Shown piece after piece: positions 2,836 to 34,553 of a stretch of 34,553 nt of DNA. The stretch covers positions 1 through 34,553 of the IMG/VR virus record IMGVR_UViG_3300009603_000031; one strand, written 5' to 3'. A model generated the notes under the pieces. It ran no database searches, had not been told where the DNA came from, and saw only the letters and a program-made list of their open reading frames with translations. Every line of letters starts with the position of its first letter. Position 1 is the stretch's first letter. Both the position numbers and the translations under genes were made by a program. This DNA is from a virus.

Positions 2836-3454
2836 CAATGAATTGTTTAATGAAGTATTAAATAAAAAGGAAAGCTTTTTTATTCCTTCAAAGGATAGTA
2901 ATAAGTCTTTTACGGCACCAAATGTTAGAGGTGAGTTCTATGGGCATTTAAAAAATGCTACACAGAAAGAAGTGATGTTTGAAAAGGACGGAGAAAAGTA
3001 TAAGGCTGTTGTGTATAACTATGATTTTGAGATAGCTAAAGAAAATGAAAAGCAATCTTATGCATACACAAGCTATAAGGATGGTTCAAAGCAGAAAGCA
3101 GAAGGCAGAGCTTATATTGGAAGAATCTATAAAGGTAGTGGAGTATTCAGATTCCTAGAGCCAGAAGAAAAAGATGACTTTGTATCTAATGCTACTGGCA
3201 ATCAGAACTACTTAAGATTCTGTGAAACTCTTGGAGTATCAATACCAGTTAAAGAGGTGGAAATGAATGGAGAAAAGGTAGAAGTTCAAGCACTACCATC
3301 TCTTGATACTGGGGAGTTAAACGGAAAGCCGGCTATTGCAGTTATAGATAAAGGTAAGAAGTATACATGGGAAGGTAAGGAAAGAACTCCATATGTAGTT
3401 AAATTTGTAAAAAAATGGGAAGATGGGGAGACAAGTGATGATATTCCTTTCTAG
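2825..3454 (+). CDS. SSB-like single-stranded DNA-binding protein
   Basis: The 209-residue product ends in GETSDDIPF, the acidic tip with terminal Pro-Phe that bacterial SSBs use to recruit partner proteins. The body is rich in strands with aromatic residues (KAVVYNYDFEI, SYAYTSYKDGS, GVFRFLEPEEK), consistent with an OB fold, but I do not recognise a standard SSB N-terminal domain. Its place right after the annealing protein supports the role. AAAGGAG lies just before the start, inside the end of the upstream gene. The DNA encoding its final DDIPF also holds the start codon of the next gene in another frame. Confidence 0.65.
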   Translation: MANSNELFNEVLNKKESFFIPSKDSNKSFTAPNVRGEFYGHLKNATQKEVMFEKDGEKYKAVVYNYDFEIAKENEKQSYAYTSYKDGSKQKAEGRAYIGRIYKGSGVFRFLEPEEKDDFVSNATGNQNYLRFCETLGVSIPVKEVEMNGEKVEVQALPSLDTGELNGKPAIAVIDKGKKYTWEGKERTPYVVKFVKKWEDGETSDDIPF

Positions 3455-3590
3455 AGACAAAAGAAAGAAAGTTGGAGCAACAAAAGAATTTTTAATAAAT
3501 GTTCTTTATGGTGTTGGAGTAAAAGGTTATAAGATATCTAAGATTGTTGGGGTATCGAGAGCTACTGTGTATAGACACATATACAAGTAG
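3438..3590 (+). CDS. 50-residue HTH protein overlapping the SSB-like tail
   Basis: Read in the +1 frame relative to the SSB-like gene, this encodes a 50-residue protein whose C-terminal half (GYKISKIVGVSRATVYRHIY) is a resolvase/Hin-type helix-turn-helix. The N-terminus is strongly basic (SRDKRKKVGATK). The ATG at 3438 has GGGGAG about 7 nt upstream, within the SSB-like gene. It contains only the DNA-binding part of a recombinase, so it is more likely a regulator or DNA-bending protein than an enzyme. The target is not visible, though the inverted repeats at 3700-3750 lie close by. Confidence 0.65.
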   Translation: MIFLSRDKRKKVGATKEFLINVLYGVGVKGYKISKIVGVSRATVYRHIYK

Positions 3591-3594
3591 AGAA

Positions 3595-3705
3595 ATGGGA
3601 GACTTTACTTTCCGTGAGGCAGTAAGAGAGTGTTTTCAATGGGTTTTGATAATCTCTTTCCCATTCCTTTGCACTCTGGTTCAGGTCTCCCATATAATTA
3701 GGTAA
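3595..3705 (+). CDS. Possible 36-residue membrane peptide
   Basis: A short frame starts 5 nt after the HTH stop and encodes MGDFTFREAVREC followed by a hydrophobic stretch (residues 15-35, beginning QWVLIISFPF). The hydrophobic run and the position in the operon favour a real gene; the weak ribosome site (only GAGA upstream) and the small size argue against it. The stretch could instead be a non-coding spacer whose hairpins matter. Confidence 0.35.
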   Translation: MGDFTFREAVRECFQWVLIISFPFLCTLVQVSHIIR

Positions 3706-3750
3706 CTGATGTTACCTCGTCGAAAAGAGAACGGGAGTCTTCGGGCTCCC
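3700..3750 (+). ncRNA. Two tandem perfect hairpins, the second with a UUCG tetraloop
   Basis: AGGTAAC-TGAT-GTTACCT (3700-3717) is a perfect 7-bp stem. It is followed by GGGAGTC-TTCG-GGCTCCC (3733-3750), a 7-bp stem closed by the very stable C(UUCG)G loop, containing one G-U pair as RNA. No T-run follows, so it is not a classical terminator. It lies 18 nt before the start of the repeat-rich zinc-finger gene. It may protect an mRNA end, mark a processing site or slow transcription between early blocks. Confidence 0.6.
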
Positions 3751-3768
3751 TGACTCTGAAAGGAGAAA

Positions 3769-4476
3769 ATGAAAAAATATTGCACTAAATGTAAAGAACT
3801 TAAATCTTTTGATATGTTTTATAAAAGAAAAACAAATAAAGATGGTCTGCGATATTCTTGTAAGGCTTGTAATTCTAAAAACAGCAAAAAATGGAAATTA
3901 AAAAATAAAGATAGATGGGATACATATCGAAAACAATGGAAATTAAAAAATAAAGATAGAATAAGAGAAACAAGTAAACAATGGAGATTAAACAATCAAG
4001 ATAAAACAAGAGAATGGCAGTTAATAAATAAAGATAAAATGAAAGAATGGGGCAAAAAGTATTATTTAATAAATAAAGAGAGAATAATAGAATATAGGCT
4101 AAAAAATGAAGATAAAATAATAAAAACAAGGAGAAGGTATTATTTAAAAAACATAGACAAATTAAGAGAAAAAAACAAACAATGGAGATTAAACAATCAA
4201 GATAAAATTAAAGTATATAGTAAGAAATATAATAAAAAGTGGCGATTAAATAATAAAGATAAAATAAGAGAATGGAATTTAATAAATAAAGATAAAATAA
4301 GAGAATATAATAAGGAACGAAGAGATAGGGATATAAGGGAATGCTCAGATAGTTATATAAAAAAACTATTAACAGGTGGAAACAATTTATCTTTTAAAGA
4401 TATACCACAAGAATTAATAAAGGCAAAAAGACAACATTTGAAAATCAAAAGAATAACAAAGGAGAATAGCAAATGA
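3769..4476 (+). CDS. Zinc-finger protein with about ten lysine-rich repeats (HNH-associated type)
   Basis: The 235-residue protein begins with a four-cysteine zinc ribbon (C5-x2-C8 and C31-x2-C34). About ten repeats of 13-17 residues follow (residues 41-183), built on a W/Y-x-L-x-N-K/Q-D-K-I-R-E pattern. This layout is known from phage HNH/endonuclease-VII-like proteins, in which charged repeats follow a zinc finger, but I see no HNH catalytic residues here. The C-terminal part (DSYIKKLL, DIPQELIKAKRQHLKIKR) matches a tail often found on such proteins. The repeats are probably a helical DNA- or RNA-binding rod. AAAGGAG precedes the start. It may be a homing-endonuclease relic, a moron or a nucleic-acid binder. 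Confidence 0.6.
   Translation: MKKYCTKCKELKSFDMFYKRKTNKDGLRYSCKACNSKNSKKWKLKNKDRWDTYRKQWKLKNKDRIRETSKQWRLNNQDKTREWQLINKDKMKEWGKKYYLINKERIIEYRLKNEDKIIKTRRRYYLKNIDKLREKNKQWRLNNQDKIKVYSKKYNKKWRLNNKDKIREWNLINKDKIREYNKERRDRDIRECSDSYIKKLLTGGNNLSFKDIPQELIKAKRQHLKIKRITKENSK
3889..4317 (+). repeat. Degenerate coding repeats in the zinc-finger gene
   Basis: About ten A-rich units of 39-51 nt encode variants of LKNKDRIREY and LNNQDKIREW. Near-identical pairs are visible: the region around 3940-3961 resembles that around 3889-3910, and the WRLNNQDK-coding stretches at 3982 and 4183 are almost the same. Expansion by unequal exchange or slippage is the simplest explanation. Confidence 0.7.
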
Positions 4477-4712
4477 AAACAGATAAAAAGCAAATAAACG
4501 ACTTTAGTGATTTTGAAGAAATGGTTACTGCTCATAGAGGAGTGTTAAAATCATTAATTGAACAAGATGGGTTCTTTAAAAACAACGAGGCAGTTGAAAT
4601 TAACAATGGTTTTGGTAAGCAATTAAGTTATATGAAATTGAAACTTGAGGCATATAAAATGTTAAGAGAAAAGCCAACGAGAGAAGAATTGTTTTTGCCT
4701 AGTCCGAAATAA
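4473..4712 (+). CDS. Hypothetical early protein, 79 aa
   Basis: This gene starts inside an ATGA overlap with the upstream stop and has AAAGGAG about 10 nt before the ATG, so it is almost certainly translated. The product is acidic and helical, with FSDFEEMVTAHRGVL (11-25) and KQLSYMKLKLEAYKMLREKP (49-68). I see no known motif. It belongs to the run of small early proteins, probably host-interaction or accessory factors. Confidence 0.6.
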   Translation: MKTDKKQINDFSDFEEMVTAHRGVLKSLIEQDGFFKNNEAVEINNGFGKQLSYMKLKLEAYKMLREKPTREELFLPSPK

Positions 4713-4723
4713 TTGGTGAATAA

Positions 4724-4999
4724 ATGAGCTCTCTGATAATATTTAGTGTGATGATTGATGCATATGCATTTATGACATTCTCATCACTACTAGATGAGGC
4801 TTGGAACTGTGCTAATCCCAGACCGTATCCAAAAGAAAAGTATAAAGTATGTCAATGGAGTGAGTCAGATTTAAAGCTTTATAAAGGAACATGGATACTT
4901 AAACCAAAAGATGCAGATGACAATTTTATTGAAAAGAAAGTAAGAAAAGTATATTGGAAAAAACGTGGCTATGATGCTACTAAAATAAGGTTTAAATAA
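4724..4999 (+). CDS. Hypothetical early protein, 91 aa
   Basis: The N-terminus is hydrophobic (SLIIFSVMIDAYAFMTFSSLL) and the rest is charged with many aromatics (YKVCQWSESDLKLYKG, VRKVYWKKRGY). No clear ribosome site precedes the ATG at 4724, and an in-frame ATG at 4751 is an alternative start. The hydrophobic stretch may be a membrane helix if the longer form is right. It is not recognised. Confidence 0.45.
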   Translation: MSSLIIFSVMIDAYAFMTFSSLLDEAWNCANPRPYPKEKYKVCQWSESDLKLYKGTWILKPKDADDNFIEKKVRKVYWKKRGYDATKIRFK

Positions 5000-5000
5000 T

Positions 5001-5180
5001 ATGAATTGTTGGCATTGTAACGAAGAATTGATTTGGCAAGCAGACCATGACTACGAAGATGTGTATGGAGCCCCAAATGATGGGATTATTACTCATTTAC
5101 AATGTCCTAAAAAGGATTGCAATGCGTTTGTTGAAGTCTATTTGAAATTAAGGGGGGATAATGAGAAAAAAGAAGACTAG
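5001..5180 (+). CDS. Small zinc-ribbon protein, 59 aa
   Basis: The 59-residue product begins MNCWHCNEELIWQADHD and later has LQCPKKDCNAFVEVY, giving CxxC (C3, C6) and CPxxxC pairs, a compact zinc ribbon. Short proteins with a MNCWHC start are frequent in phage genomes and have no assigned function. The gene starts one base after the upstream stop and its 3' end overlaps the next start by 20 nt in a different frame. Confidence 0.65.
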   Translation: MNCWHCNEELIWQADHDYEDVYGAPNDGIITHLQCPKKDCNAFVEVYLKLRGDNEKKED

Positions 5181-5379
5181 TCTTGCAAAATTCTCGGATG
5201 TTGCAAGAAGTCAGGGCAAAGGACCGGCTAGAAAATATGCACAAGGGTTGTCATCTTATGAGAGAAGAGTAAAGAAAGTAAAAGAGGTTGCAGGAGATTG
5301 TTGGTGGTTAAAGAATTACTTGATGGATAGATGTGGATTGCAAAAAGATTCAAAGCCAAGAAAGGTTAAGAATGGATAA
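5161..5379 (+). CDS. Basic hypothetical protein, 72 aa
   Basis: The product is strongly basic (many K/R), starting MRKKKTSLAKFSDVARSQG with a middle SSYERRVKKVKEVAGDCWW. The AAGGGGGG run just upstream of the ATG is a strong ribosome site lying inside the previous gene. Binding to nucleic acid is plausible from charge alone. There is no motif I can name. Confidence 0.55.
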   Translation: MRKKKTSLAKFSDVARSQGKGPARKYAQGLSSYERRVKKVKEVAGDCWWLKNYLMDRCGLQKDSKPRKVKNG

Positions 5380-5689
5380 ACAAACACTACATGAATTAAT
5401 GAGTTATATTTTTAACGAGGTTACAAGGACACGTAATGCGGGTCAACAAGAATACGCTAGGGATTTAGATAATGTCTTTGCTAATTTTGAGAGAGTTGCA
5501 TCTTTTATAGGAGAGACTAGAGAAAAAGCGTTGCTAACATATATGATTAAGCACGTTGACGGTCTTTGTGCATATGCAGAGGGGCATAACTCTCAACGAG
5601 AAGATGTGAGAGGAAGACTAACAGATATAATAGTTTATTGTATTTTATTTTGGGGGATGGTAGAGGATAATGCCAAACAAGAAAGCTAA
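5372..5689 (+). CDS. Nmad1/DUF1599-like (MazG-type helical) protein
   Basis: The start at 5372 is chosen because AAAGG lies about 8 nt upstream and the ATG overlaps the previous stop; a longer frame from 5333 lacks a site. The 105-residue product is all-helical. It has QEYARDLDNVFANFERVA (residues 21-38), a KH pair (MIKHVDGLCAYAEG) and GRLTDIIVYCILFWGMVED near the end. This resembles the nucleotide-modification-associated domain 1 family (MazG-like fold), linked to handling of nucleotides in phages. Metal-binding acidic residues are partly present (D28, E35, D85). Catalytic activity is not certain. Confidence 0.45.
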   Translation: MDKQTLHELMSYIFNEVTRTRNAGQQEYARDLDNVFANFERVASFIGETREKALLTYMIKHVDGLCAYAEGHNSQREDVRGRLTDIIVYCILFWGMVEDNAKQES

Positions 5690-5783
5690 AGCAAGAAAAA
5701 TGTTAAGAAAAAAGCGAAGAGAGGCTATCAAGGTCTGGAAACGTAAACAAAAACTACTTAAAAAGGAGAAACGTAATGGGTAG
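5670..5783 (+). CDS. Very basic 37-residue protein
   Basis: The 37-residue product (MPNKKAKARKMLRKKRRE...) has more than half K or R and one tryptophan. It starts inside the end of the MazG-like gene (AATG) and its end overlaps the next start. Short MPNKKA-type proteins recur in phage genomes next to replication genes. Binding to DNA or RNA is likely from charge; the role is unknown. Confidence 0.55.
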   Translation: MPNKKAKARKMLRKKRREAIKVWKRKQKLLKKEKRNG

Positions 5784-5964
5784 AGCAATAGATATGGAAA
5801 AAGATATCGACGTTTTAAAAAGAGAAATGAAAGAGTTGAAAGGTGTCTTGCAAGAAATATTAAAAGGAGTTGAAGATGACAAAAAAGAAACCAAAAAAAC
5901 CGACACTAAACGAAGTAAAAAAAGTAGTGGAAAATCTACTGCACGACCTTCAGATAGTGAATAA
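5776..5964 (+). CDS. Small coiled-coil protein, 62 aa
   Basis: Residues 7-34 (MEKDIDVLKREMKELKGVL, continuing to GVED) have heptad spacing of I, L and V, which suggests a coiled coil. The C-terminal half is K/S/T-rich and probably disordered. AAAAGGAG lies upstream of the ATG within the previous gene. The next gene begins inside it in another frame, so most of its disordered tail is double-coding. Confidence 0.55.
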   Translation: MGRAIDMEKDIDVLKREMKELKGVLQEILKGVEDDKKETKKTDTKRSKKSSGKSTARPSDSE

Positions 5965-6103
5965 TAAAGTTGATTCATTGGCTCTTGTAGTTAATGCATA
6001 TGTAGATTATAAAAAAGATGAAACCGATTTCATGAAGTACATGAAAGAAAAATGGGAGAAAGAAAGTGATAAACAAAGAACTGCTAGTAAAGATTCTAAG
6101 TGA
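5876..6103 (+). CDS. Small helical protein, 75 aa, nested in the previous gene
   Basis: The ATG at 5876 is chosen because AAAAGGAG ends 6 nt before it; an upstream TTG (5870) is too close to that site. After a basic start (MTKKKPKKPTLNEVKK), residues 15-45 form a predicted coiled-coil helix (VENLLHDLQIVNNKVDSLALVV), followed by a charged tail. It overlaps the upstream gene by 89 nt. It may be a partner of that coiled-coil protein. Confidence 0.55.
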   Translation: MTKKKPKKPTLNEVKKVVENLLHDLQIVNNKVDSLALVVNAYVDYKKDETDFMKYMKEKWEKESDKQRTASKDSK

Positions 6104-6245
6104 AAATAATTGGGGATTATATATCACTACTAGTCCTTTAGAGGAGATGACATCGAATTTCGGTAAGATGTATAAAATAAACGATGTTGATATTGATAGA
6201 TTAGTAGAGACGTATAATGCACATTTAGAATCACCAGAAGAATAA
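6066..6245 (+). CDS. GTG-started small protein, 59 aa
   Basis: A GTG at 6066 with GGAGA about 7 nt upstream opens a frame of 59 codons with ordinary composition: INKELLVKILSENNWGLYI, then MTSNFGKMYKINDVDIDRLV. An internal ATG at 6147 would give a 32-residue form with GAGGAG directly against it, which is too close. The longer form overlaps the previous gene by 38 nt. It fills what would otherwise be a gap before the helicase. Function is unknown. Confidence 0.55.
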   Translation: MINKELLVKILSENNWGLYITTSPLEEMTSNFGKMYKINDVDIDRLVETYNAHLESPEE

Positions 6246-6258
6246 AAGGAGAAAATAT

Positions 6259-7599
6259 ATGAACCAAATTGTAGATGAAGCCACAGAGAATGTGGTTCTG
6301 GGGGGTCTTATCCTCAATCCAAGCGAATATAACACAATAGCTCAGTATGTTCCAGAGCTAGAAGTGTTCTCACAAAAGAAAGCTAGAGCATTATGGGTAA
6401 AGGTTTCCAAAATGATAAGAAAAGGGGACCATGTTGATACTCTAACTATATGCACATCATTAACGAGCGAAGAAACATTAAATGGTATTTCAAGAGGATA
6501 TGTAGTAGATTGTACATCTGATGCTTGCGGTCAAGCAACAATGGAAATTTATGCACAAAAAATATATGAAAAATACTTATTAAGAAAAATTGTTGATGAA
6601 TCACAGAACGTAGCTTCTGGAGTAATTAATCATGGAGAAGATGTTTATGACCTAGTAACCAACACCCATACTTTAATGGGGGAATTACTACGAGTGAGAC
6701 CGGGGGAGAAATTTAATATTGAAGAAGTATTGGATAATACTGCAAAAACAATGAAGGACGGAGCCAATAGAATGATTAAAACTGGCTACAGAAAAATAGA
6801 TGATTTTGCCGGTGGATTAACACGTGGAGAAATAAGTATTGTTGGAGGAAGACCGGGGCATGGAAAAACTACATTCTTGGTAAATCTTCTTACCTCTTTT
6901 ATTAAAGGTGGATATAAAGTGGCTATGTTTAACAGAGAGTTACCTAATACGGAAGTTATAAAGAAGATGTTCTGTATTGAAATGCCTAAACTTCAGTACA
7001 GAGATGTTAGGCGTGGTGTTTTGAATGATAGGACAATTAAATTGTTAAAGGAAGCAAGAGAGATTATCACAAATAAATATCCAGAGGATAAATTTATTAT
7101 GTTTGATAATATAAGAGACTTCCCAAAGACCGCCTCAGAAGTAAAGAAATTCAAGCCAGATGTAATTATAGATGATTATATACAGCTTGTAACTCCAACT
7201 GGGAAAGAGGATACTAGAAGATTACAGCTAGAGAGGATATGTAATGACTATAAATGGCTAGCTAAAGAAAATGATTGCTCAGTAGTGATTGCCTCGCAGT
7301 TAAATAGATACTTAGAAACTAGAAGTGGAGATGCTAAGAGACCTCAACTTTCTGATTTGGCAGAGTCTGGAGCAATAGAACAAGTGGCAGAGAATGTATT
7401 CTTTGTATACTATCCTTATAAAATGGACCCAGCTACTCATAGCAAGAATGAGATATATCTTGTTGCTAGTAAAGTACGATATGGAGAAACTGGAGAAATC
7501 GTATTAGGATACCACGGGGATATATGCACAATATATGATGAACTCCCACTAATTAACTATAAGGAAAATAATGATACAAGAGAACTCCCATTCGATTAA
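6259..7599 (+). CDS. DnaB-like replicative helicase
   Basis: The 446-residue protein has the two-part DnaB layout. An N-terminal helical domain (about 1-145) begins VDEATENVVLGGLILNP. The RecA-like motor has Walker A GRPGHGKT (197-204), Walker B DVIIDDYIQL (301-310), the SQLNR motif (346-350) and the LSDLAESGAIEQVAENVFF region (365-382). It unwinds DNA at the phage fork as a hexamer. No separate primase or loader is recognisable in the window, so it may rely on host or outside genes. AAAAGGAG precedes the ATG. Its end overlaps the RuvC-like gene by 29 nt. Confidence 0.92.
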   Translation: MNQIVDEATENVVLGGLILNPSEYNTIAQYVPELEVFSQKKARALWVKVSKMIRKGDHVDTLTICTSLTSEETLNGISRGYVVDCTSDACGQATMEIYAQKIYEKYLLRKIVDESQNVASGVINHGEDVYDLVTNTHTLMGELLRVRPGEKFNIEEVLDNTAKTMKDGANRMIKTGYRKIDDFAGGLTRGEISIVGGRPGHGKTTFLVNLLTSFIKGGYKVAMFNRELPNTEVIKKMFCIEMPKLQYRDVRRGVLNDRTIKLLKEAREIITNKYPEDKFIMFDNIRDFPKTASEVKKFKPDVIIDDYIQLVTPTGKEDTRRLQLERICNDYKWLAKENDCSVVIASQLNRYLETRSGDAKRPQLSDLAESGAIEQVAENVFFVYYPYKMDPATHSKNEIYLVASKVRYGETGEIVLGYHGDICTIYDELPLINYKENNDTRELPFD

Positions 7600-8056
7600 A
7601 TACATAGGTATAGACCCCGGAAAAAGCGGTGGTATTGCCGTAATATCAAATGAAGGTATTGAGGTCAAAAAATGCCCAGAATCAGTTCAAGACATGGCGT
7701 TTCTCTTTGCACTAATATTGCAAGAGACTCCTCCTTCGCACGTACTTGTCATGATTGAAAAGGTCTGGGCACGACCTCATGACGGAAGAACTTCTGTATT
7801 TACATTTGCAGGGAATTATGGACAATGGCAAGGCATTGTAGCATGTCATGAGATAAAGCCACACTATGTTGCTCCTCAAGTATGGATGAAAGCAATAGGG
7901 TGTCCTCCTAAATTAAGCAAAAAAGATAGAAAGAATTATTTAAAAGCATTAGCGAAGGAAAAGTTCCCAGATTTAAGTAAAAAGATGACACTCGCAACAG
8001 CAGATGCTATGCTTATAGCAGATTACTCAAAGAATATTTTTGATAAAACTAAGTGA
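7571..8056 (+). CDS. RuvC-like Holliday junction resolvase
   Basis: The 161-residue product shows the RNase H-fold RuvC signature: IKYIGIDPGKSGGIAVI with D15, MIEKV with E63, and TADAMLIADY with D145 (and D151 nearby) at the C-terminus. A basic KLSKKDRKN stretch precedes the last motif. It should cut four-way junctions made during recombination-dependent replication, before packaging. The start lies inside the helicase gene with AAGGA upstream. A second nuclease follows directly, so junction processing may be shared or backed up. Confidence 0.85.
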   Translation: MIQENSHSIKYIGIDPGKSGGIAVISNEGIEVKKCPESVQDMAFLFALILQETPPSHVLVMIEKVWARPHDGRTSVFTFAGNYGQWQGIVACHEIKPHYVAPQVWMKAIGCPPKLSKKDRKNYLKALAKEKFPDLSKKMTLATADAMLIADYSKNIFDKTK

Positions 8057-8108
8057 TATAGATAAAGTATTTGGACCATTAAAAAGAGTAGCAGAAGGAG
8101 GTAAATTA

Positions 8109-8513
8109 GTGCCAATAAATTACGAAGAAATGAAGAAATTTGATTTAGACCTTAAATTCGGGCATTTAGGGGAAGATTTTGTCCGAGATATGCAGAATGG
8201 TAACACAATGATAGAAGTTAAGACAGAGCGTGATATATGGAAGAATACGGGCAATATAGCAGTAGAGATACGGTGTAATGGCGTTCCTTCTGGCATATCT
8301 ACTACTGGTGCTAAGGTATGGGTGCACCTATTATCATATAAAGATAAGATAGAAGGTGGATTTATATTTGATGTTACAGATTTAAAAGGTAAGATTAGAG
8401 CATTGTTAAAGGAAAAGAAGGCAAAGATTGTTATGGGTGGAGACTTTAATGGCAGTCAGATAGTATTGCTACCAATAAGGGAACTATTTAACGGTAAATC
8501 CAGCTCTTCTTAA
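8109..8513 (+). CDS. PD-(D/E)XK-type nuclease, 134 aa
   Basis: The GTG at 8109 is chosen because a full AAGGAGG (8095-8101) lies 7 nt upstream; an in-frame TTG at 8040 would add 23 residues but has no ribosome site. The core reads FGHLGEDFV (E22), then TMIEVKTERD (E37, K39) and GNIAVEIR (E53), the order of a PD-(D/E)XK fold, followed by GISTTGAKVWVHLL. Small enzymes of this kind in phages are Holliday junction or branch nucleases. It ends the early operon, overlapping the convergent 2246-residue gene by 30 bp. Confidence 0.65.
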   Translation: MPINYEEMKKFDLDLKFGHLGEDFVRDMQNGNTMIEVKTERDIWKNTGNIAVEIRCNGVPSGISTTGAKVWVHLLSYKDKIEGGFIFDVTDLKGKIRALLKEKKAKIVMGGDFNGSQIVLLPIRELFNGKSSSS

Positions 8514-11500
8514 AGATTTTTTAATAGATTTAGCAATTTCTTTGTCTATAATATATTTAGGATTGTCAATAAGTTTTCTTATAGCCATTAATTTTGATTT
8601 ATACATACTTTCACCTATAGCTAGTTCAGACATGTAAGCTTTTCCTCTTTCTTTATCTTTATTTAACCAAGCAAACCATTGTCCAGACATTTTTTCTTTT
8701 TCTTTAGAAAGGTCATCAACAAATGAAATTGGATTTGGATTCAATTTAGTAATTTCTCTTTCAAATCTAGACACTGCATCTTCAAGAGCTTCTTCTATTG
8801 AGTACATAGTTTTTCCGTCCTCAAATCTTTTTTGTCTAAAAATGTCAGTAGCTAAAGCAAATAAAGAAACAATATATTGTTTTGCAGTCTCCTCTGGTGT
8901 CCCCCCATAAAAAACGTCTCTAAAATCTCTATAATGAGGTGATTGTTGTTCGTAGTTTATAGATGGAGATGTTAATTCTGGTAAAGATTCTTTTTTAAAT
9001 TCTCTAAATAACGTAGAACCTTTCAATTTAACTTGATACATCTTGTTTTTCTCGCCTTTTCTCTTATTTATATTTATATAAGCACGGTACCCAGACGATG
9101 TTTTCTTTAAAAAATCTTTTCCAGATTGTTCCCAATTTTTTCTGCCTGCCATTGGAGCTTTTAATAAATCAATCCAAGCAAACCCCCAATTAACTAATGA
9201 TGGGTATATAGTATATTCTGCACTTTCTCCTTCTAACAATCTTAATATATCAGTTCCTAATCCAAAAACCTCGCCTCGCATTATTATCTGCTTTACCCAC
9301 TCAAACCAATTAGAATTTTCAGCTGGCATAGGAGTGCCTAGCATTGCATTATACATACTTACAATCGCTGTTCCGCTCGCAACTGGAGCTAAAGTCATCA
9401 TGCCCAATTTCATATAATCGCCATTTTTTACTGCTAATTTCACATTTCTAATTTGATTGTCTGATGCTGCATAAGCCATTCTTTTAAATAATAGCAAAGG
9501 TTTTGCAATTCTTCCGCTTGCCCAAGAGGGTTGAAATAAGTGCATCGCCGCACCTTGAGTATTTATGTGAGCATAAGTATTTAATTGTTGTTCAATATTT
9601 TTTAGCTCTCTTACTACTTTTCCTTTCTCAAAAGAATTAACAAAATCGTGCCCAGTAACTCCGTGTTCACCATATTTTTGCAATGTTTTAATTTGTGTAT
9701 CATTTAAAAAATAAAAATCTTTCAACCTATTTAATGCTTTTTTTACTTTACGAGGAGAACTGCTAGGATTTGAAATAGTCCTAATTAATCTAGCTTGTTC
9801 ATATTTACTTGTTGCTATTGCAATATATCTATTTGCATTTTCAGTAGGTTTCATTAAACCTAATTTAAATATTCCATCCCAAATCTTTTGAGTTTTAACT
9901 GTTTTAATATCTCTTAAACCTAATTCTGTTGCTCCGCTCATTCTAACAAACTTTTTAAAATCAGAGCCAGTAGCCTTAACTATTCCTCTGATATAATCTC
10001 TCAAATAATAACTTTGCATATTCATTGATTGTCCAAGGATAAAGTTTTTTCCACCAGAAGTAGGAAACCCTAGAGCTGTTTTTGCAAAGACAGTTGCACC
10101 GTAATCCATTCCTCTGCCTATATCATTACCTATACCTTTAGATGTTTCTACCATTCCTAGCTGATGCTCAACTTGTTCTCTAAGCCATCCACCCCATTCT
10201 CTATTACCATTCATAGCTCCCAATAAAGATTCTACATTTCCACTTGCTTTATTTCCAGCTGTATTTAAATGTTTAAGTTTTGTCATTTCAGGGAAAATTT
10301 CTAAATTAGCAATAAACTTAGCCATTCCTAACCCATAAGCCTTAATTGTAGACTCATATGAAGTTTCATAAACTTTTATTCTTTTACCATTAATATTAAT
10401 ATATTCAGGGAGTTTCTCACCTCTAGCTTTAACAAATCTTGTTGAACTTTTTTTCTCAGAAAATGTATATATATCTTGTACCGCTGATTCTGCTACTTTC
10501 ATAGCATTAGGCATTTTTTCCATTATCTGTTCAGTTGTAACCCCTGGACCATGTTCTTCTAATGCCATTTCTTTTGCAATTTTATTTGCAGTTTTTTGCA
10601 ATAAATCTTGATGATATTTTCCACCATGCTGTGGAAATTCCCTTAAAAATTCTTTAGTTGGCATTCTAGGAACATAAATATTACCTCTTATCCACCCAAT
10701 CTCTCCATTATCAAGGTATTCTTTATATTCAGCTTCTGTTTCGAAATTCTTACCAGAAGATTCTTTTATTTCTGCTTCTATTCTTTCAGTAAATTCTGCC
10801 CACTCTTTTGCAACCTTACCTTCTTTAGTATCTAAGTTAAATCCTTCTTTTGGATTTGTTTTATATTTTTTATTTAAAATATATTTACCATCTTTTAATA
10901 CTGCAAAATCAGATACGAATGCTTTTTTAGCAAAACTTTTATTAGATGCACTTAAATCATTTGTATTTAGTCTTTCTATATATCTTTGATTGTCAGCTAA
11001 AAATAAATTATCTCGCATTCCTTTACCGAGAATACCTTCCCATTTACCACCAATTATTTTTTGGGCAACTGCTTCAAACCCTTCAGTAAATTCCCCTTGT
11101 AATCTAGTTTCTATTGCAGCATGTTGAAGTAATTTTGACTGTAAATCTTTTAACCCTAAAGCTCCTACAACTTCATGTGTAGGCATAAAAAGAAGCATTG
11201 CTTTTCTTTTAAGTCCTGTAGCATCCTTAAAATCTTTAGGAATCTTATCAAGAGTTTGAATTTTCATTTCATTTAGATAAGCCATATTATCTGGCTGTCC
11301 AGGAAATTTTATTTTCATTAGATATGACTGATACATCCCTAACTGTTTAAATGTTGCTGAATATAAATTGCCATCCTTAACACCCATAGCTTTTAGTATA
11401 AGAGCCCTATCATTAATATTAACAGCACCTTTTTCAATATTTTCTGCAGCTTGTATACCTTCAATTCTTCTTCCAATATCAGCTAATTTTACTAGCTTTT

Positions 11501-14500
11501 TAAATGGTATAATCTCTAATACATTGTTAAAAGCAACAATGTCAGCTTCGTTCATTTTACCATCACCTAATTTGAATTTAGCGGGGTCAGATATGTTAGC
11601 TTTTTCAGCCATATAATTAATTAATATTTTTTTATCAGATGCTGATAATGTTTGACCTGCTTCTTTGACAGCAAATGTAAAATTATCTTTTACATGTTTT
11701 GCTCGTTCAACATTAGTGGCAAACTGATACATTTGGATACTTTGGCCAGAGGGAGCTTTAGAAGTAGAAAATCCTTTGTATATTTTTTCTCCTAATATTC
11801 TTCTTACATCATTTTTATTTAAATTAGATTTTCCAAAAAATACTTGTTTGATTTTAGTCCACAATCTACCAGCCCAAGATTTCATTTTAGCAGGTACAGT
11901 AGTAGCTTGCCTTCTACCTATAGCCCAATCTGCTAATTCGTCTGCAATAAATTCTTCTATATCTCTGCCTTTAGATTCTTTTTTGAATAATTTTTCTGCC
12001 TGTTTCCATAAAGCTTTTAATTCTTTATTATTTGTAGCGTCTATCATGTTTTTTAATCTATGCGCATTCTCATGATACCAAGTTCGCATATTAGCCTTAC
12101 CTTCTACTACATCTATAACGCCTTTATAGAATCTTCCAGCATAATCTACATCTTTTATAATTCTAGCTTCTACACCTGGATTATTCTTAATTTCTTGTCT
12201 TATAAAATTATCTAATTCTCTGACAGAAGATGGTATTTCTTCAGATTTTAATTCAAATTTACCCTTCATTATTGATTCTAAATTTGCTTCAAATGTAGGC
12301 ACATCTATTTTATTTTCAATTAAATCACGAACATTTTTTGATAATCTTATTTTTTGTGTTGTACTTGGAGCTATTCCATATATTTTATCAGACCATTTTT
12401 GATGACCCATGACTGATTTTATTGTATTTACTCCAGTGCTAGAAAACCCTCTTTGAGATAATATTTCTGATTCTACTAATTTACGAGTAATAAGTTCAAG
12501 TTGAGGTTTAACGCCTACTGCTTTTAATTCTTTGTCTAATCCTGTGAGTTTTAAAGCCTCTTGTGCTAACTTTTTATCAAAAATATTAGTTTCAGGTTTT
12601 ATGTTTTTACTCGTTATATAACTTTGAATATCATTATATAGTTTTTTTGATATAGGAATAGGTCTTGCATACGATTTTGCAACTCTCGTATCTAGTACTA
12701 TCTCATAAACTTCAGTATCTCCATATTTTTTTATTTTAAAATTTTCTGGATGTAATTTATTAATTTCCCCAGTACGCATCCCAAAACCTTCTAATCCGTG
12801 TAGCCTAGCGACTAGATTAGCACCTTTATTTGATGTAGTTCTTGTATCTAAATTATCAAGAACTTTTTTAGCTCCCCCAGATTTTTCAGCGATATTAGCA
12901 ACGTACTCTGATATATCTGTACCACGAGCTTTTATTTGTTCATTAGCATTATTCCATATTTTTTTAAATTGAGCTCTAGTAAAAGGAACTTTACTTAATA
13001 ACCCTCTATCACTAGCATGTTTCGTTATATCACTTATATTTAACATTCTACTTTGATATGTGGAAGCTGTAGCTAACTCATTAACTAATTTGTTAGAATA
13101 TTTTTGTATATCCGAAATATTAATATCAGCTAACTCTCTTTTATTTGCATTTTCTAATAATCCCACTATTCCATCTGAAGCTGTTTTCCCCGTTTGTCGT
13201 ATATGGTCAACAATAGTAGCTTGAGTTTGTTCAGATAAATTTTTATTTTTATCTAAAAATCTACGTTCTTGACTAGGCTTATAAACATCATTTCCAGTTA
13301 CGGGAGATTTTACATTAAAATCTTGTTCTTTTACACCCTTCATTACATTGATAGCATTTTCTAATTCAGTTGTTTGAGGAATACCTGAAGGACCTTTTTT
13401 CGTTGCTTGTAAAAGATTTTCCATATTGGCAACAGTTTTTTCTATTGATATATCGCCTTTTTCATTACGAACATATTGTTCTTCAATATCTTTAAGCCAG
13501 CTTTCTCTACGTTTACTACCTATAGGTGCGACCAATAATTGATTTCTTAAATCTTTTATTCTATCAACTGTTACTTCAGGTGTAACAATAGTAGGAGCAG
13601 GTTCTTCAACTGGCGTAGGAACATCTCTGTTAATATTAGTTAAGTTTTTATTTACTTCTTTAAAAAATCCTTGTAATAAATCAATATTAGAGTTATTTGT
13701 AGTTTCAGCTAATAAATAATCTGATTCTTTTAATGTTTTACCTTTTTTTTTAGCAACTGCATCTAAAGCGCTTCTTAATAAATTAGCATCATTTTTTAAT
13801 GCTATTAAACCGCCTTCTAAATCTAAAAAAGTCTCAGCACCTTCCTTCTGTAAAAATATTGTTTCTTTTTTTGTAGCTTTAGATAAATCTCCATTTGTTC
13901 TATCAATAATCTCGTATATTTTTTTTACGTTACTATTAAATGTAGTACGTTCCATCTTGACATTATTAAAATATTCTACTGATGTAGACATATCTCTCAT
14001 CATATCTTCAGTTACAGATATACCTAAATTTGATTTTAAATTTTCATTAGCTTTAACTTGTTTTTCAGCTACCTCTGATTCTAATTTCATAGCTTCATCT
14101 ACAAGTTTTGAACTTTCTTTAAGCTTATTACGTGCTGAAAAAGCTTTATTCATACCAAACATAGGTGTAACAATAGCTGCATTAAAGCCAGCATTACGCC
14201 ACCAAGGGTCATTAAAATCTAACCAATTTTGAGGCATGTCGGGAAAATCTTGATATGCTTTCATCCCTAGTTCTTTGTATACGTTAGGTATGGCTGAAAA
14301 TGCTGCAATCTCAGATGTTAACTGCCCTGGGGCACCAGTTGCTATTCTGGATAATGATGTAAGAGGTTTTTCTGATAGTTTATGTTTAGCATAGTAATTA
14401 CCTAAAAATCCACGACCTATTAAGCCCATAGGGGCACCTATTACAAATGAATTTAAAAATCCTTCAGAACCAGTATCTACAACTTGTTTAGCGTCTACTT

Positions 14501-15224
14501 GACCAATACCCTTGCCTTGTTCATCTGTTTCTAACATTCTTTGATATGCTGCATCTGCAAAAGCACTATGTGCAGCTCCAAATGTACCAAGACCAACACC
14601 ACCAGATAATGCAGAACTAATAAATGTCGATGATGTCTTACCCAAACCTTTAGTTGCATTATATCCTAATGCATTCATACTATATTTTTTTAATAAACTA
14701 GTTGCTCCTATCCCTAATTTGCCTGCCATTACGCCAAGTTTACCACCCGTTGCAATTATAGAAACTTCGACTGGAGATAACATTCCTAATAAAAATGCTC
14801 CAGCTTCTTGAGCTAATGTCTCATGTTTGTATTCAGAAACATCGTATTTTTCTTCACCAGTTATTGCTGTATTTAAATGACCTGCATTGGATTCCATATA
14901 TGATTTTTGGAAAAATTCTGGGGGCAACCCCATAAAACCAGTTTCTGTAAATAGTTCTGCAGCACCACCTAAAGCAATTTTTTCACCAGCATCATATAAT
15001 TGGTCTACAAAACTAGGTGAAGATTTATCTTCTTCTGTAGGTAAAATTTCATTAGTAGGAGTGTAAATAGGCGCAGGTTTATACTCTGGAAGTCTTTGAC
15101 CTCTGTTTTGGGCCATTTTATTAACTTCAGAATATATATCCTCATCTGACATATCACTGTATATACCAGGATATGTAGAACGCATATGACTTATTAATTC
15201 TTCTTGATTATTAAATTGTGGCAT
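8484..15224 (-). CDS. 2246-residue virion-type polyvalent protein with recombinase and metallopeptidase modules
   Basis: The N-terminus has the short motif ISHMRSTYPGIYSDMSDEDI typical of large phage internal proteins. Residues 140-280 are Gly/Ala-rich and hydrophobic. Residues 690-955 form a tyrosine-recombinase-like module, and H1051-E-x-x-H1055 with EEFIADELADW (1090-1100) is a zinc-peptidase motif. The remaining 1100 residues are mostly helical, with a hydrophobic segment near 1930-1955, and have no catalytic motif I recognise. Position at the end of the late operon after other large structural proteins suggests an ejection protein that crosses the envelope with the DNA. The domain mix fits the polyvalent proteins described for phages and conjugative elements. 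Expression as a virion component is inferred. Confidence 0.8.
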   Translation of the reverse strand: MPQFNNQEELISHMRSTYPGIYSDMSDEDIYSEVNKMAQNRGQRLPEYKPAPIYTPTNEILPTEEDKSSPSFVDQLYDAGEKIALGGAAELFTETGFMGLPPEFFQKSYMESNAGHLNTAITGEEKYDVSEYKHETLAQEAGAFLLGMLSPVEVSIIATGGKLGVMAGKLGIGATSLLKKYSMNALGYNATKGLGKTSSTFISSALSGGVGLGTFGAAHSAFADAAYQRMLETDEQGKGIGQVDAKQVVDTGSEGFLNSFVIGAPMGLIGRGFLGNYYAKHKLSEKPLTSLSRIATGAPGQLTSEIAAFSAIPNVYKELGMKAYQDFPDMPQNWLDFNDPWWRNAGFNAAIVTPMFGMNKAFSARNKLKESSKLVDEAMKLESEVAEKQVKANENLKSNLGISVTEDMMRDMSTSVEYFNNVKMERTTFNSNVKKIYEIIDRTNGDLSKATKKETIFLQKEGAETFLDLEGGLIALKNDANLLRSALDAVAKKKGKTLKESDYLLAETTNNSNIDLLQGFFKEVNKNLTNINRDVPTPVEEPAPTIVTPEVTVDRIKDLRNQLLVAPIGSKRRESWLKDIEEQYVRNEKGDISIEKTVANMENLLQATKKGPSGIPQTTELENAINVMKGVKEQDFNVKSPVTGNDVYKPSQERRFLDKNKNLSEQTQATIVDHIRQTGKTASDGIVGLLENANKRELADINISDIQKYSNKLVNELATASTYQSRMLNISDITKHASDRGLLSKVPFTRAQFKKIWNNANEQIKARGTDISEYVANIAEKSGGAKKVLDNLDTRTTSNKGANLVARLHGLEGFGMRTGEINKLHPENFKIKKYGDTEVYEIVLDTRVAKSYARPIPISKKLYNDIQSYITSKNIKPETNIFDKKLAQEALKLTGLDKELKAVGVKPQLELITRKLVESEILSQRGFSSTGVNTIKSVMGHQKWSDKIYGIAPSTTQKIRLSKNVRDLIENKIDVPTFEANLESIMKGKFELKSEEIPSSVRELDNFIRQEIKNNPGVEARIIKDVDYAGRFYKGVIDVVEGKANMRTWYHENAHRLKNMIDATNNKELKALWKQAEKLFKKESKGRDIEEFIADELADWAIGRRQATTVPAKMKSWAGRLWTKIKQVFFGKSNLNKNDVRRILGEKIYKGFSTSKAPSGQSIQMYQFATNVERAKHVKDNFTFAVKEAGQTLSASDKKILINYMAEKANISDPAKFKLGDGKMNEADIVAFNNVLEIIPFKKLVKLADIGRRIEGIQAAENIEKGAVNINDRALILKAMGVKDGNLYSATFKQLGMYQSYLMKIKFPGQPDNMAYLNEMKIQTLDKIPKDFKDATGLKRKAMLLFMPTHEVVGALGLKDLQSKLLQHAAIETRLQGEFTEGFEAVAQKIIGGKWEGILGKGMRDNLFLADNQRYIERLNTNDLSASNKSFAKKAFVSDFAVLKDGKYILNKKYKTNPKEGFNLDTKEGKVAKEWAEFTERIEAEIKESSGKNFETEAEYKEYLDNGEIGWIRGNIYVPRMPTKEFLREFPQHGGKYHQDLLQKTANKIAKEMALEEHGPGVTTEQIMEKMPNAMKVAESAVQDIYTFSEKKSSTRFVKARGEKLPEYININGKRIKVYETSYESTIKAYGLGMAKFIANLEIFPEMTKLKHLNTAGNKASGNVESLLGAMNGNREWGGWLREQVEHQLGMVETSKGIGNDIGRGMDYGATVFAKTALGFPTSGGKNFILGQSMNMQSYYLRDYIRGIVKATGSDFKKFVRMSGATELGLRDIKTVKTQKIWDGIFKLGLMKPTENANRYIAIATSKYEQARLIRTISNPSSSPRKVKKALNRLKDFYFLNDTQIKTLQKYGEHGVTGHDFVNSFEKGKVVRELKNIEQQLNTYAHINTQGAAMHLFQPSWASGRIAKPLLLFKRMAYAASDNQIRNVKLAVKNGDYMKLGMMTLAPVASGTAIVSMYNAMLGTPMPAENSNWFEWVKQIIMRGEVFGLGTDILRLLEGESAEYTIYPSLVNWGFAWIDLLKAPMAGRKNWEQSGKDFLKKTSSGYRAYININKRKGEKNKMYQVKLKGSTLFREFKKESLPELTSPSINYEQQSPHYRDFRDVFYGGTPEETAKQYIVSLFALATDIFRQKRFEDGKTMYSIEEALEDAVSRFEREITKLNPNPISFVDDLSKEKEKMSGQWFAWLNKDKERGKAYMSELAIGESMYKSKLMAIRKLIDNPKYIIDKEIAKSIKKSLRRAGFTVK
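11940..12074 (-). other. Zinc metallopeptidase motif in the giant protein (residues 1051-1095)
   Basis: TWYHENAHRL carries HEXXH (H1051, E1052, H1055) and is followed 36 residues later by EEFIADELADW, in which E1091 can be the third zinc ligand. This is the gluzincin layout seen in zincin-like domains of phage MuF-type and polyvalent proteins. It may cut the giant protein itself, other virion proteins during maturation, or a host target after injection. Confidence 0.65.
12360..13157 (-). other. Embedded tyrosine-recombinase module (residues about 690-955)
   Basis: A core-binding-like segment (LADINISDIQKYSNKL, then STYQSRMLNISDITKHA) precedes a catalytic-like domain. The conserved residues appear in order: GMRTGEI with R817, K850 in a predicted hairpin, LITRKL with R914, VMGHQKW with H941 and IYGI with Y949, 8 residues after the histidine. 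The first histidine of the HxxR motif is replaced by leucine (L911). Four to five of the six usual catalytic positions are thus present, so activity is possible but not certain. Confidence 0.7.
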
Positions 15225-31606: not shown

Positions 31607-31833
31607 TATGATGTCCAATCACTCTTTGCGAGTTCAGTTAAAATCTCGCTATGGTTATATGTTGTCATTCCATCAAAGCAACTAGGTGTATCACCATCCC
31701 ACTTTAATATTGCTTTGGTTCCATCTAAAGTCTTTTTTAATGTACCTGTGCTTAATTGGATAGAACTTGAAATCATTTCATCTGTTATATCAGATACATT
31801 TACTATTACCCATTTTCTGTTTTCAGAAGCCAT
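31606..31833 (-). CDS. Hypothetical protein, 75 aa
   Basis: The product (MASENRKWVIVNVSDITDEM, then AILKWDGDTPSCFDGM) is a small mixed alpha/beta protein with one cysteine. No known domain is recognised. It is linked by TAATG to the LamG-like gene upstream and the next gene downstream, so it is co-translated with virion components. Confidence 0.5.
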   Translation of the reverse strand: MASENRKWVIVNVSDITDEMISSSIQLSTGTLKKTLDGTKAILKWDGDTPSCFDGMTTYNHSEILTELAKSDWTS

Positions 31834-32564
31834 TATGGAGCATCTCCTACAAAGTCATCTGCACTCATATTTGTCATAGTTCCATTATTTGTAGATGAAG
31901 ACATGTCGTAAATAGTAGTTCCACCACCACCTTCCAACCCATCTCCCATTCTCCACCATCCTTGTAAATTAGCTGATACTACGCCTTCTTTGTGATTATA
32001 TGGTTCTCTTCCATTATATATAGTTGCTACTTGTGATGACGATAAAGCTACATTATATCTTACCAACTCTGATATTTTATTAGAACTTCCAGCAGAACCA
32101 TAATTAGTATCTAGTCTATTTATATAAAGACTAGCAGAATTATCCCAATCTTCAGAATTTGAATCTGTATCTGTATTAACATAACTACCATTTAGATACC
32201 AATTATTTGTACCATCCCTAGAAGATGTAAACGCTAGATGAATCCATTGATTTTCATAAGAAGTAAGTATTGTTGAGCAAACAGCATTCATTTTAGTAGC
32301 TCCACCTACATCACATTGAAATAAGATTTGGTCACTACCATTAGATACAAAAAACCATCTATCATTATCACTTGTTCTTTTAGATATAATATAATTAGAT
32401 GTCCATTGGTCAACTTTAATCCAAAAAGCAAAACTAAATGCTCCAGTTCCTAGGTTATTTGTATTTCCAAGGTCTAAATAATCATTAGTTCCATCGAAAT
32501 CCAATGAATATTCATCTCTAAATGAATCACCACCTAATATTGTCATTGCTCTTGTAGGAAACAT
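31833..32564 (-). CDS. LamG/concanavalin-A-like lectin domain protein, 243 aa
   Basis: After a short start, residues 18-200 show the laminin-G-like pattern: YSLDFDGTNDYLDLGNT, FSFAFWIKVDQW, IHLAFTSSRDGTNNWYLNGS and ISELVRYNVALSSSQVATIY, the typical end strand, followed by GWWRMGDG. Such domains bind sugars or form beta-sandwich surface modules. On a phage head they can help binding to cell surfaces or mucus-like glycans. TAATG junctions on both sides. The ligand cannot be read from the sequence. Confidence 0.75.
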   Translation of the reverse strand: MFPTRAMTILGGDSFRDEYSLDFDGTNDYLDLGNTNNLGTGAFSFAFWIKVDQWTSNYIISKRTSDNDRWFFVSNGSDQILFQCDVGGATKMNAVCSTILTSYENQWIHLAFTSSRDGTNNWYLNGSYVNTDTDSNSEDWDNSASLYINRLDTNYGSAGSSNKISELVRYNVALSSSQVATIYNGREPYNHKEGVVSANLQGWWRMGDGLEGGGGTTIYDMSSSTNNGTMTNMSADDFVGDAP

Positions 32565-33686: not shown

Positions 33687-34553
33687 TTAAGCTCCTTCTA
33701 TATTAAACAAAGCATGAGTTTCAGGAAGAGATATTTCAAGACCTGCTTCTGTTAGAATCAAGTCTTTTCGTAAATCTTCATCAGCTTGTTGTACGTTTGT
33801 TGTTATATGAGTGTCTCTATTAACACCATTGCCAACTAGAGGCCTATATGAAACGTGGTCAAGGTCAACTAAAGCCATAAATGTAGAAGACAATCCTCGG
33901 AATAACGGCTCTTTAACAAGAGTGAAGTCTCCGTGAACTGTTTCTATTTTCATTACTTTATGACCAAATGAACCTTTTCCAGAATCAAAATTATAAGCGT
34001 ATGGATTCGCAGAATGCCCCATAGAAGCATCAACAAAAGCACCATCACCTAACTTATTGAACAATGATATTACAGGTAAAGAAGCTAATGCTAATTTACT
34101 TGAACTTCCGCCTCTAGCAGGGTCAAACACAACTTCTAAGTCAGAAAGAAAGTTATCATATGTCATTGAGCCTGAAGCTATAGACTTATGATATGCTTTA
34201 CCTTCTGAATAAGACAATTGAGTAGTATCTGTTGTTGGAGCAGCACCTTCAGCGATAATATGTCCTACCACACCTTCTGAGTAGTTCACGCCACCAACTT
34301 GAGCACGTTGTCCAAATAACATTGTTCTCTCTATGTCTATTTTATGTTCTCTTAATTTAAGATTCCATAATCTTTGCCATTCATCAGCATATCCTTTATA
34401 CACAGTAGCTCTTGCTGTATTAGACATCTCACAAGCTGTTTTAAAGATTTGGGTATAACCATAATCATTATCTAACTCTTGAGACCATACATCTGGAGCT
34501 CCTGAACCTTCAGCATACGCTGTACCAATTACCTGACAATTAACAGCAGTTGA
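33687..34553 (-). CDS. Major capsid protein (HK97-type, SU10/DUF5309-like), partial
   Basis: The frame stays open from the ATG at 34427 to the window edge, adding 42 codons (ending TQIFKTACEMSNTARATVYK across the apparent start), so the true start lies outside and 34427 is an internal methionine. The visible 288 residues include YADEWQRLWNLKLREHKIDI and ERTMLFGQRA, the long-helix region of SU10/DUF5309-type capsid proteins, and later FDPARGG and VDLDHVSYRPLV. It forms the icosahedral shell. It is the first gene in the window for the late operon, whose promoter is outside. Confidence 0.7.
   Translation of the reverse strand, partial: STAVNCQVIGTAYAEGSGAPDVWSQELDNDYGYTQIFKTACEMSNTARATVYKGYADEWQRLWNLKLREHKIDIERTMLFGQRAQVGGVNYSEGVVGHIIAEGAAPTTDTTQLSYSEGKAYHKSIASGSMTYDNFLSDLEVVFDPARGGSSSKLALASLPVISLFNKLGDGAFVDASMGHSANPYAYNFDSGKGSFGHKVMKIETVHGDFTLVKEPLFRGLSSTFMALVDLDHVSYRPLVGNGVNRDTHITTNVQQADEDLRKDLILTEAGLEISLPETHALFNIEGA

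Follow-up and report, generated by a model that had tools for sequence, protein, structure and literature searches.

The window analysed here is the whole of IMG/VR record IMGVR_UViG_3300009603_000031, a linear record of 34,553 bases, the genes and features of which are collected in Table 1. Its leftward late operon ends in the gene for a giant protein, which stands convergent with genes for a small protein, a RuvC-like resolvase and a DnaB helicase, and this arrangement was found to be conserved in approximately 50 records, in agreement with the placing of the giant gene last in the late operon by a sequence-only reading of this DNA. The window also encodes a PD-(D/E)XK nuclease. Another late gene (31833-32564) encodes a Laminin_G_3/concanavalin-like domain (1.1e-18), and the C-terminal part of its product matches a tail-terminator PHROG; a small early protein (1396-2088) has a weak HTH_26 N-terminus and a sigma-70 region 4 domain (3.7e-11), making it a possible transcription switch factor.

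Table 1. Positions of the genes, domains and catalytic residues in the window (aa, amino acids; TR, tyrosine recombinase; A1, A2 and A3 are alignments described in the text).
Feature	Position	Strand	Observation
SU10-type major capsid protein (MCP)	33687..34553	-	PF17236 1e-16; truncated at the end of the contig; first identified gene in the late block
Upstream late gene, 837 aa	15233..17746	-	Diverges quickly; closest relatives have it at the same place
Giant late gene, 2246 aa	8484..15224	-	ATG start; last in leftward late operon
N-terminal region of giant, residues 1-560	13545..15224	-	Conserved family-wide; Gly-rich; hydrophobic stretch 141-159 (hydropathy)
SAM-like core-binding domain, residues ~662-781	12882..13241	-	All helical; AlphaFold2 model; Pfam matches of homologs
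TR catalytic domain, residues ~784-969	12318..12875	-	Profile and fold searches
R817, catalytic Arg I	12774..12776	-	RxxE motif with E820; 20/20 in A2
K850, beta2-beta3 hairpin	12675..12677	-	Lys within hairpin in 20/20 of A2
L911, HxxR histidine position	12492..12494	-	His in 0/20 of A2; present (HHFRH) in L146
R914, catalytic Arg II	12483..12485	-	R 17/20, K 2/20 in A2
H941, GH motif	12402..12404	-	19/20 in A2
Y949, predicted nucleophile	12378..12380	-	20/20 in A2
Zincin-like metallopeptidase, residues ~999-1106	11907..12230	-	HENAH 1051-1055; likely third ligand Glu 1091; A3 alignment and model
Conserved C-terminal half of giant, residues ~1450-2000	9225..10877	-	A1 alignment
Convergent 157-aa gene, phrog_13596	8040..8513	+	Opposes giant in almost every homologous contig
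RuvC-like Holliday junction resolvase, phrog_1770	7571..8056	+	Neighbour kept across relatives
DnaB-like helicase	6259..7599	+	Neighbour kept across relatives

The giant protein and its relatives

Relatives of the MCP numbered at least 599 in viral_contigs (IMG/VR), and the only cultured phages to match it were Roseobacter phage CRP-810 and Microcystis phage Mel-JY34, at ~26% identity; judged from these sequence matches, the capsid lineage is abundant and lacks close cultured members. When the module described below, the whole giant and the C-terminal piece from the window were each queried directly against viral_contigs, 0 matches were returned. Homologs were reached by way of the capsid gene relatives, through their records, to a profile of the C-terminal half of the giant (A1), with homologous giants present in 8 of the 44 records searched behind capsid loci and 51 loci found by the A1 profile. 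Giants occur in approximately 50 viral (IMG/VR) records of marine, uncultured viruses whose host group is bacteria, as single ORFs of ~1890-2500 aa, as two ORFs (~1210 + ~1020 aa) or in shorter forms of ~1330-1600 aa. By tblastn against phage records, a recognisable homolog of the giant was found in no cultured phage of the collection, and the large late-region genes of CRP-810 and Mel-JY34 (1894 aa) showed neither a detectable TR nor detectable homology to the giant. That of CRP-810, gp35 (L002, 24064-30141), specifies a late giant with 2016 aa, and the match of this protein to ART-PolyVal, an ADP-ribosyltransferase domain of polyvalent proteins, is weak (7e-5), under the curated cut-off. Record G044 (IMGVR_UViG_3300030376_005787; 45.4 kb) is classed as linear without end repeats, yet it starts and ends with the same 77 bases and is for this reason probably a complete genome.

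Alignment of the N-terminal region across 19 members (A4) gave Y31, S112, G115, G123, G263, G267 and Q301 as invariant. Searching the conserved C-terminal half against the PDB gave no match, and a profile search with the N-terminal part of the giant and the 837-aa upstream protein against solved ejection proteins returned coiled-coil noise only. The 837-aa protein is a candidate for a second internal or ejection protein.

The tyrosine recombinase module

Residues ~662-969 of the giant are almost certainly homologous to tyrosine recombinases and make up a diverged, two-domain member of that superfamily. From the window sequence alone, the best Pfam match was Phage_int_SAM_4 at E=0.11, PF00589 was absent from the record, and the module had neither a PHROG nor a PDB match; being under every significance threshold, the resemblance would by itself be indistinguishable from chance. 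Single homologs did match Pfam significantly (Phage_int_SAM_4 1.9e-6, SAM_1 2.8e-6, Phage_integrase 4.4e-6). For one giant (L107) the Phage_integrase score was 28 bits against a curated cut-off of 27.1, and 26 bits in another scan. The PF00589 matches in the 47 related records all lay within giants, with 0 in separate genes, and no separate integrase gene was found in these records with this profile.

From an iterative search that gave 31 modules, the 20 clean ones with recognisable boxes were hand-picked for alignment (A2). The A2 profile matched PDB sequences of XerA (4a8e, 2.4e-8; 5hxy, 6e-6) and E. coli XerD (1a0p, 9e-4), and in these matches Arg I, the lysine hairpin, Arg II, His and Tyr lined up with their counterparts in XerA and XerD. 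A leave-out profile made from 18 relatives, from which the window and the relative closest to it were omitted, found the window module at E=8.4e-22, the best value among 100 reversed proteins used as a decoy control being 0.016. With the homologs included, the resemblance to tyrosine recombinases is far beyond chance.

An AlphaFold2 model built from A2 (pLDDT 83, pTM 0.70) was compared with the PDB by Foldseek, and all 50 of the 50 matches listed were TRs or type IB topoisomerases, headed by Tn1549 Int and Cre (from 1.6e-4), with human Topo I and the vaccinia topoisomerase lower down among the same listed matches. Likewise, the top matches in a fold search of a viral library were annotated Integrase (1.7e-6). 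TM-scores of the fold matches were moderate (0.3-0.5) and rmsd was high, as would be expected if the two domains were angled differently than in DNA-bound clamps. A type IB topoisomerase as first choice was set aside; the module shares with the vaccinia and human enzymes the catalytic fold and the R-K-R-H-Y set without the HxxR histidine, but a recombinase is preferred because the SAM-like core-binding domain, which is of recombinase type, is present and because recombinases match better and rank higher. Compared with XerA, XerC, XerD, Cre, lambda Int and Tn1549 Int (PF00589 plus a SAM-like N-terminal domain), the two-domain fold, the order and spacing of R-K-R-H-Y, the RxxE box and the hairpin lysine are held in common, whereas here the module lies inside a giant late protein, has its HxxR histidine replaced and is fast-evolving.

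Family profile, leave-out profile and fold searches thus agreed on a TR module embedded in the giant, as the sequence-only reading had claimed from 12360-13157 (residues 690-955 of the 2246-aa protein), and the fold search gave no unrelated fold. R817, K850, L911, R914, H941 and Y949 lie where that reading had placed them; its extent for the module fell slightly short of the full domain, and the conserved E820 has to be added to the motif. The conservation it had called for at R817, R914, H941 and Y949 was found in A2 (Table 1), where the HxxR histidine alone of the catalytic residues is replaced. The only invariant columns across the 20 modules were R817, E820 and Y949, and in modules other than that of the window the HxxR histidine position was occupied by Asp, Glu, Thr, Lys, Asn, Tyr or others. 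Across all 31 modules, aligned without selection, R817 remained the most conserved residue (25/31) and E820 came second (23/31); R914 stood at 18/31 and H941 at 17/31, and Y949 was aligned in 5/31, a scatter due in part to misalignment because the spacing from His to Tyr varies. Median pairwise identity of the A2 modules was 18%, compared to ~45-80% for neighbour genes.

Type IB topoisomerases, enzymes that cut and rejoin DNA by means of Arg-Lys-Arg-His-Tyr, do not have His at the HxxR histidine position. Since these enzymes also lack that histidine, its loss excludes neither membership of the superfamily nor activity, and we consider the recombinase module likely to be catalytically active.

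The module was variable across the family. In the giant of L146 (record G066, IMGVR_UViG_3300030382_002467; giant at 3447-9944) the equivalent slot, residues ~620-957, holds a canonical integrase, whose E-value against Pfam Phage_integrase was 2.9e-16 when computed for one genome and 2.6e-13 in the library scan, and whose motifs (PKRISEM, HHFRHSAAT, LSH...THY) include all of the catalytic residues. The A2 profile gave no match when run on this module, though the remainder of the giant is homologous, and for this reason the L146 module may be a separate capture or a replacement. Ten giants split into two adjacent ORFs (~1210 + 1020 aa; L103, L104, L105, L137, L141, L143, L145, L147, L151 and L152) have a middle part with degenerate TR-like boxes, perhaps in tandem (FRK...GLGH, then ARIGELF), and HExxH is absent from them. 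In L132, L134, L136, L150 and L154 a segment resembling box A (TGPRLNEV in L132 and L134) follows one with FRK that resembles box II, an order that would be consistent with a tandem recombinase that has degraded; the zincin motif is retained. Giants of ~1330-1600 aa, some of them cut by contig ends (L111, L115, L161 and L163-L169), had no detectable recombinase or HExxH. Since a considerable share of the members have a degenerate module or none, recombination is not essential family-wide, and part of the family can do without the module.

The adjacent zincin-like domain and the protein class

Directly C-terminal of the TR module sits a zincin-like domain. In the alignment of 27 HExxH-bearing homologs (A3) the only invariant columns were H, E, H and one Glu downstream; since A3 was picked by the HExxH motif, the independent evidence it offers is limited to the downstream Glu being invariant. 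The model of this domain (pLDDT near 90) consists of a helix, three strands, the HExxH helix and a Glu helix, and its fold search against the PDB was not significant, with small zincins in the weak tail. The same succession of a helix, three strands, an HExxH helix and a Glu helix is described for the core of the MPTase zincin, the commonest domain of polyvalent proteins, in a survey of this class which argues that MPTase processes such proteins into functional units (Iyer et al. 2017, PMC5512222). From the alignment and the model, the domain after the TR is likely to be a zincin metallopeptidase with a processing role.

Polyvalent proteins of the phage type, a class which includes the N4 virion RNA polymerase and P1 DdrB (Iyer et al. 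2017, PMC5512222), resemble the giant in being very large multidomain late proteins in which an HExxH zincin is joined to a nucleic-acid enzyme. With a TR and an HExxH zincin-like domain, the giant carries disparate enzymatic domains within 2246 aa, a feature of this class. The main text of that survey contains neither the word recombinase nor the word integrase, and a recombinase would add an enzyme class unnamed there (PMC5512222).

The T7 proteins gp14, gp15 and gp16 and the P22 ejection proteins are likewise large proteins that end the structural block of phages of the short-tailed type, but the giant has no sequence match to the solved ones. These T7 and P22 proteins are not known to carry a recombinase. 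The literature search, in which much subscription literature fell outside the scope, found no report of a tyrosine recombinase carried in a phage virion. Enzyme superfamily and protein class are each known, but we did not find their combination, as it occurs in the giant, described.

Possible roles of the module

Phage integrases are normally early, stand-alone enzymes. Because this TR is built into a giant late protein and is not a separate early gene, it may be carried into the cell along with the viral DNA, and by analogy of protein class and operon position we regard such entry as fairly probable. On balance, we read the giant as a phage-type polyvalent protein, probably packaged in the virion, which carries a TR and a zincin metallopeptidase, the TR acting on the incoming DNA. 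The giant would be packaged in the virion and ejected together with the DNA, the peptidase would free the TR from the chain, and the TR would make a covalent phosphotyrosyl nick in the incoming phage DNA and then reseal it, by a topoisomerase- or Xer-like chemistry able to dispense with the HxxR histidine. The most likely result would be that ends are circularised or resolved, or that incoming DNA is relaxed, and not that the chromosome is entered by integration. As to the substrate, we lean slightly towards phage rather than host DNA. If this is true, recombination chemistry would be deliverable ready-made with phage DNA. A wider and more tentative proposal is that a widespread lineage of uncultured marine phages might deliver an active TR within an ejected, self-processing giant, allowing DNA recombination or control of topology to begin on the incoming genome ahead of any phage gene expression, with TR modules swapped in the slot (canonical in L146, others without the HxxR histidine).

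The alternative that survives best, though we think it unlikely, is a catalytically dead module of TR fold, captured from an integrase and serving DNA binding only, for example as an anchor for the genome end or in pulling in DNA. This would accord with the loss of the HxxR histidine in 20/20 modules, with boxes degraded or missing in several family members and with the very fast divergence of the module beside much more similar neighbours. For mere binding, however, it would be unexpected that Arg I and Tyr are invariant and His is kept in nearly all of the clean set, where little else is conserved, and in L146 the whole canonical site has been kept.

If delivered and active, the TR could instead act on host DNA in a conflict function, for example by taking over or blocking dif/Xer sites or by nicking the chromosome early in infection. 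A role for polyvalent proteins as effectors in conflict has been proposed (PMC5512222), an arms race would agree with the rapid divergence, and Xer proteins are the best sequence matches, but the resemblance to Xer is shared by the superfamily as a whole and we hold this role to be rather improbable. We judge to the same degree a TR that is not injected but works late in the producing cell, in concatemer or Holliday junction resolution during packaging. The location in the late operon would suit such a role, and the neighbouring RuvC-like resolvase shows that recombination intermediates matter; that same gene means, however, that a separate resolvase is already encoded, and delivery is the better fit for a multidomain chain of 2246 aa in which a processing peptidase is likely.

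Integration into the host genome had been given in the sequence-only reading as an example of what a virion-carried enzyme could do without new synthesis, and this part of it was not upheld. Membership of the TR family, the 47 related records without a separate integrase and the canonical catalytic residues of the L146 module are all compatible with an integrase of this kind. Against it, the MCP patterns that gave the viral contigs counted above gave 0 relatives in 84,980 bacterial and archaeal species genomes (a pattern scan of limited sensitivity, in which no prophage was found), no tRNA was found in the window, the search for recombination or attachment sites gave overlapping palindromes of chance quality only and no convincing candidate, and the module has been lost in several relatives. 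As these scans found neither capsid relatives in species genomes nor a separate integrase, a tRNA or a convincing site, host integration is unsupported, and a virion-carried integrase inserting the phage genome is very unlikely.

Chance resemblance or an assembly artefact, which the lack of a significant match for the window sequence alone might have suggested, is refuted by the recurrence of one architecture in over 20 giants, each a single ORF and located on different contigs, and by the profile and fold E-values, single ORFs in so many contigs ruling out misassembly.
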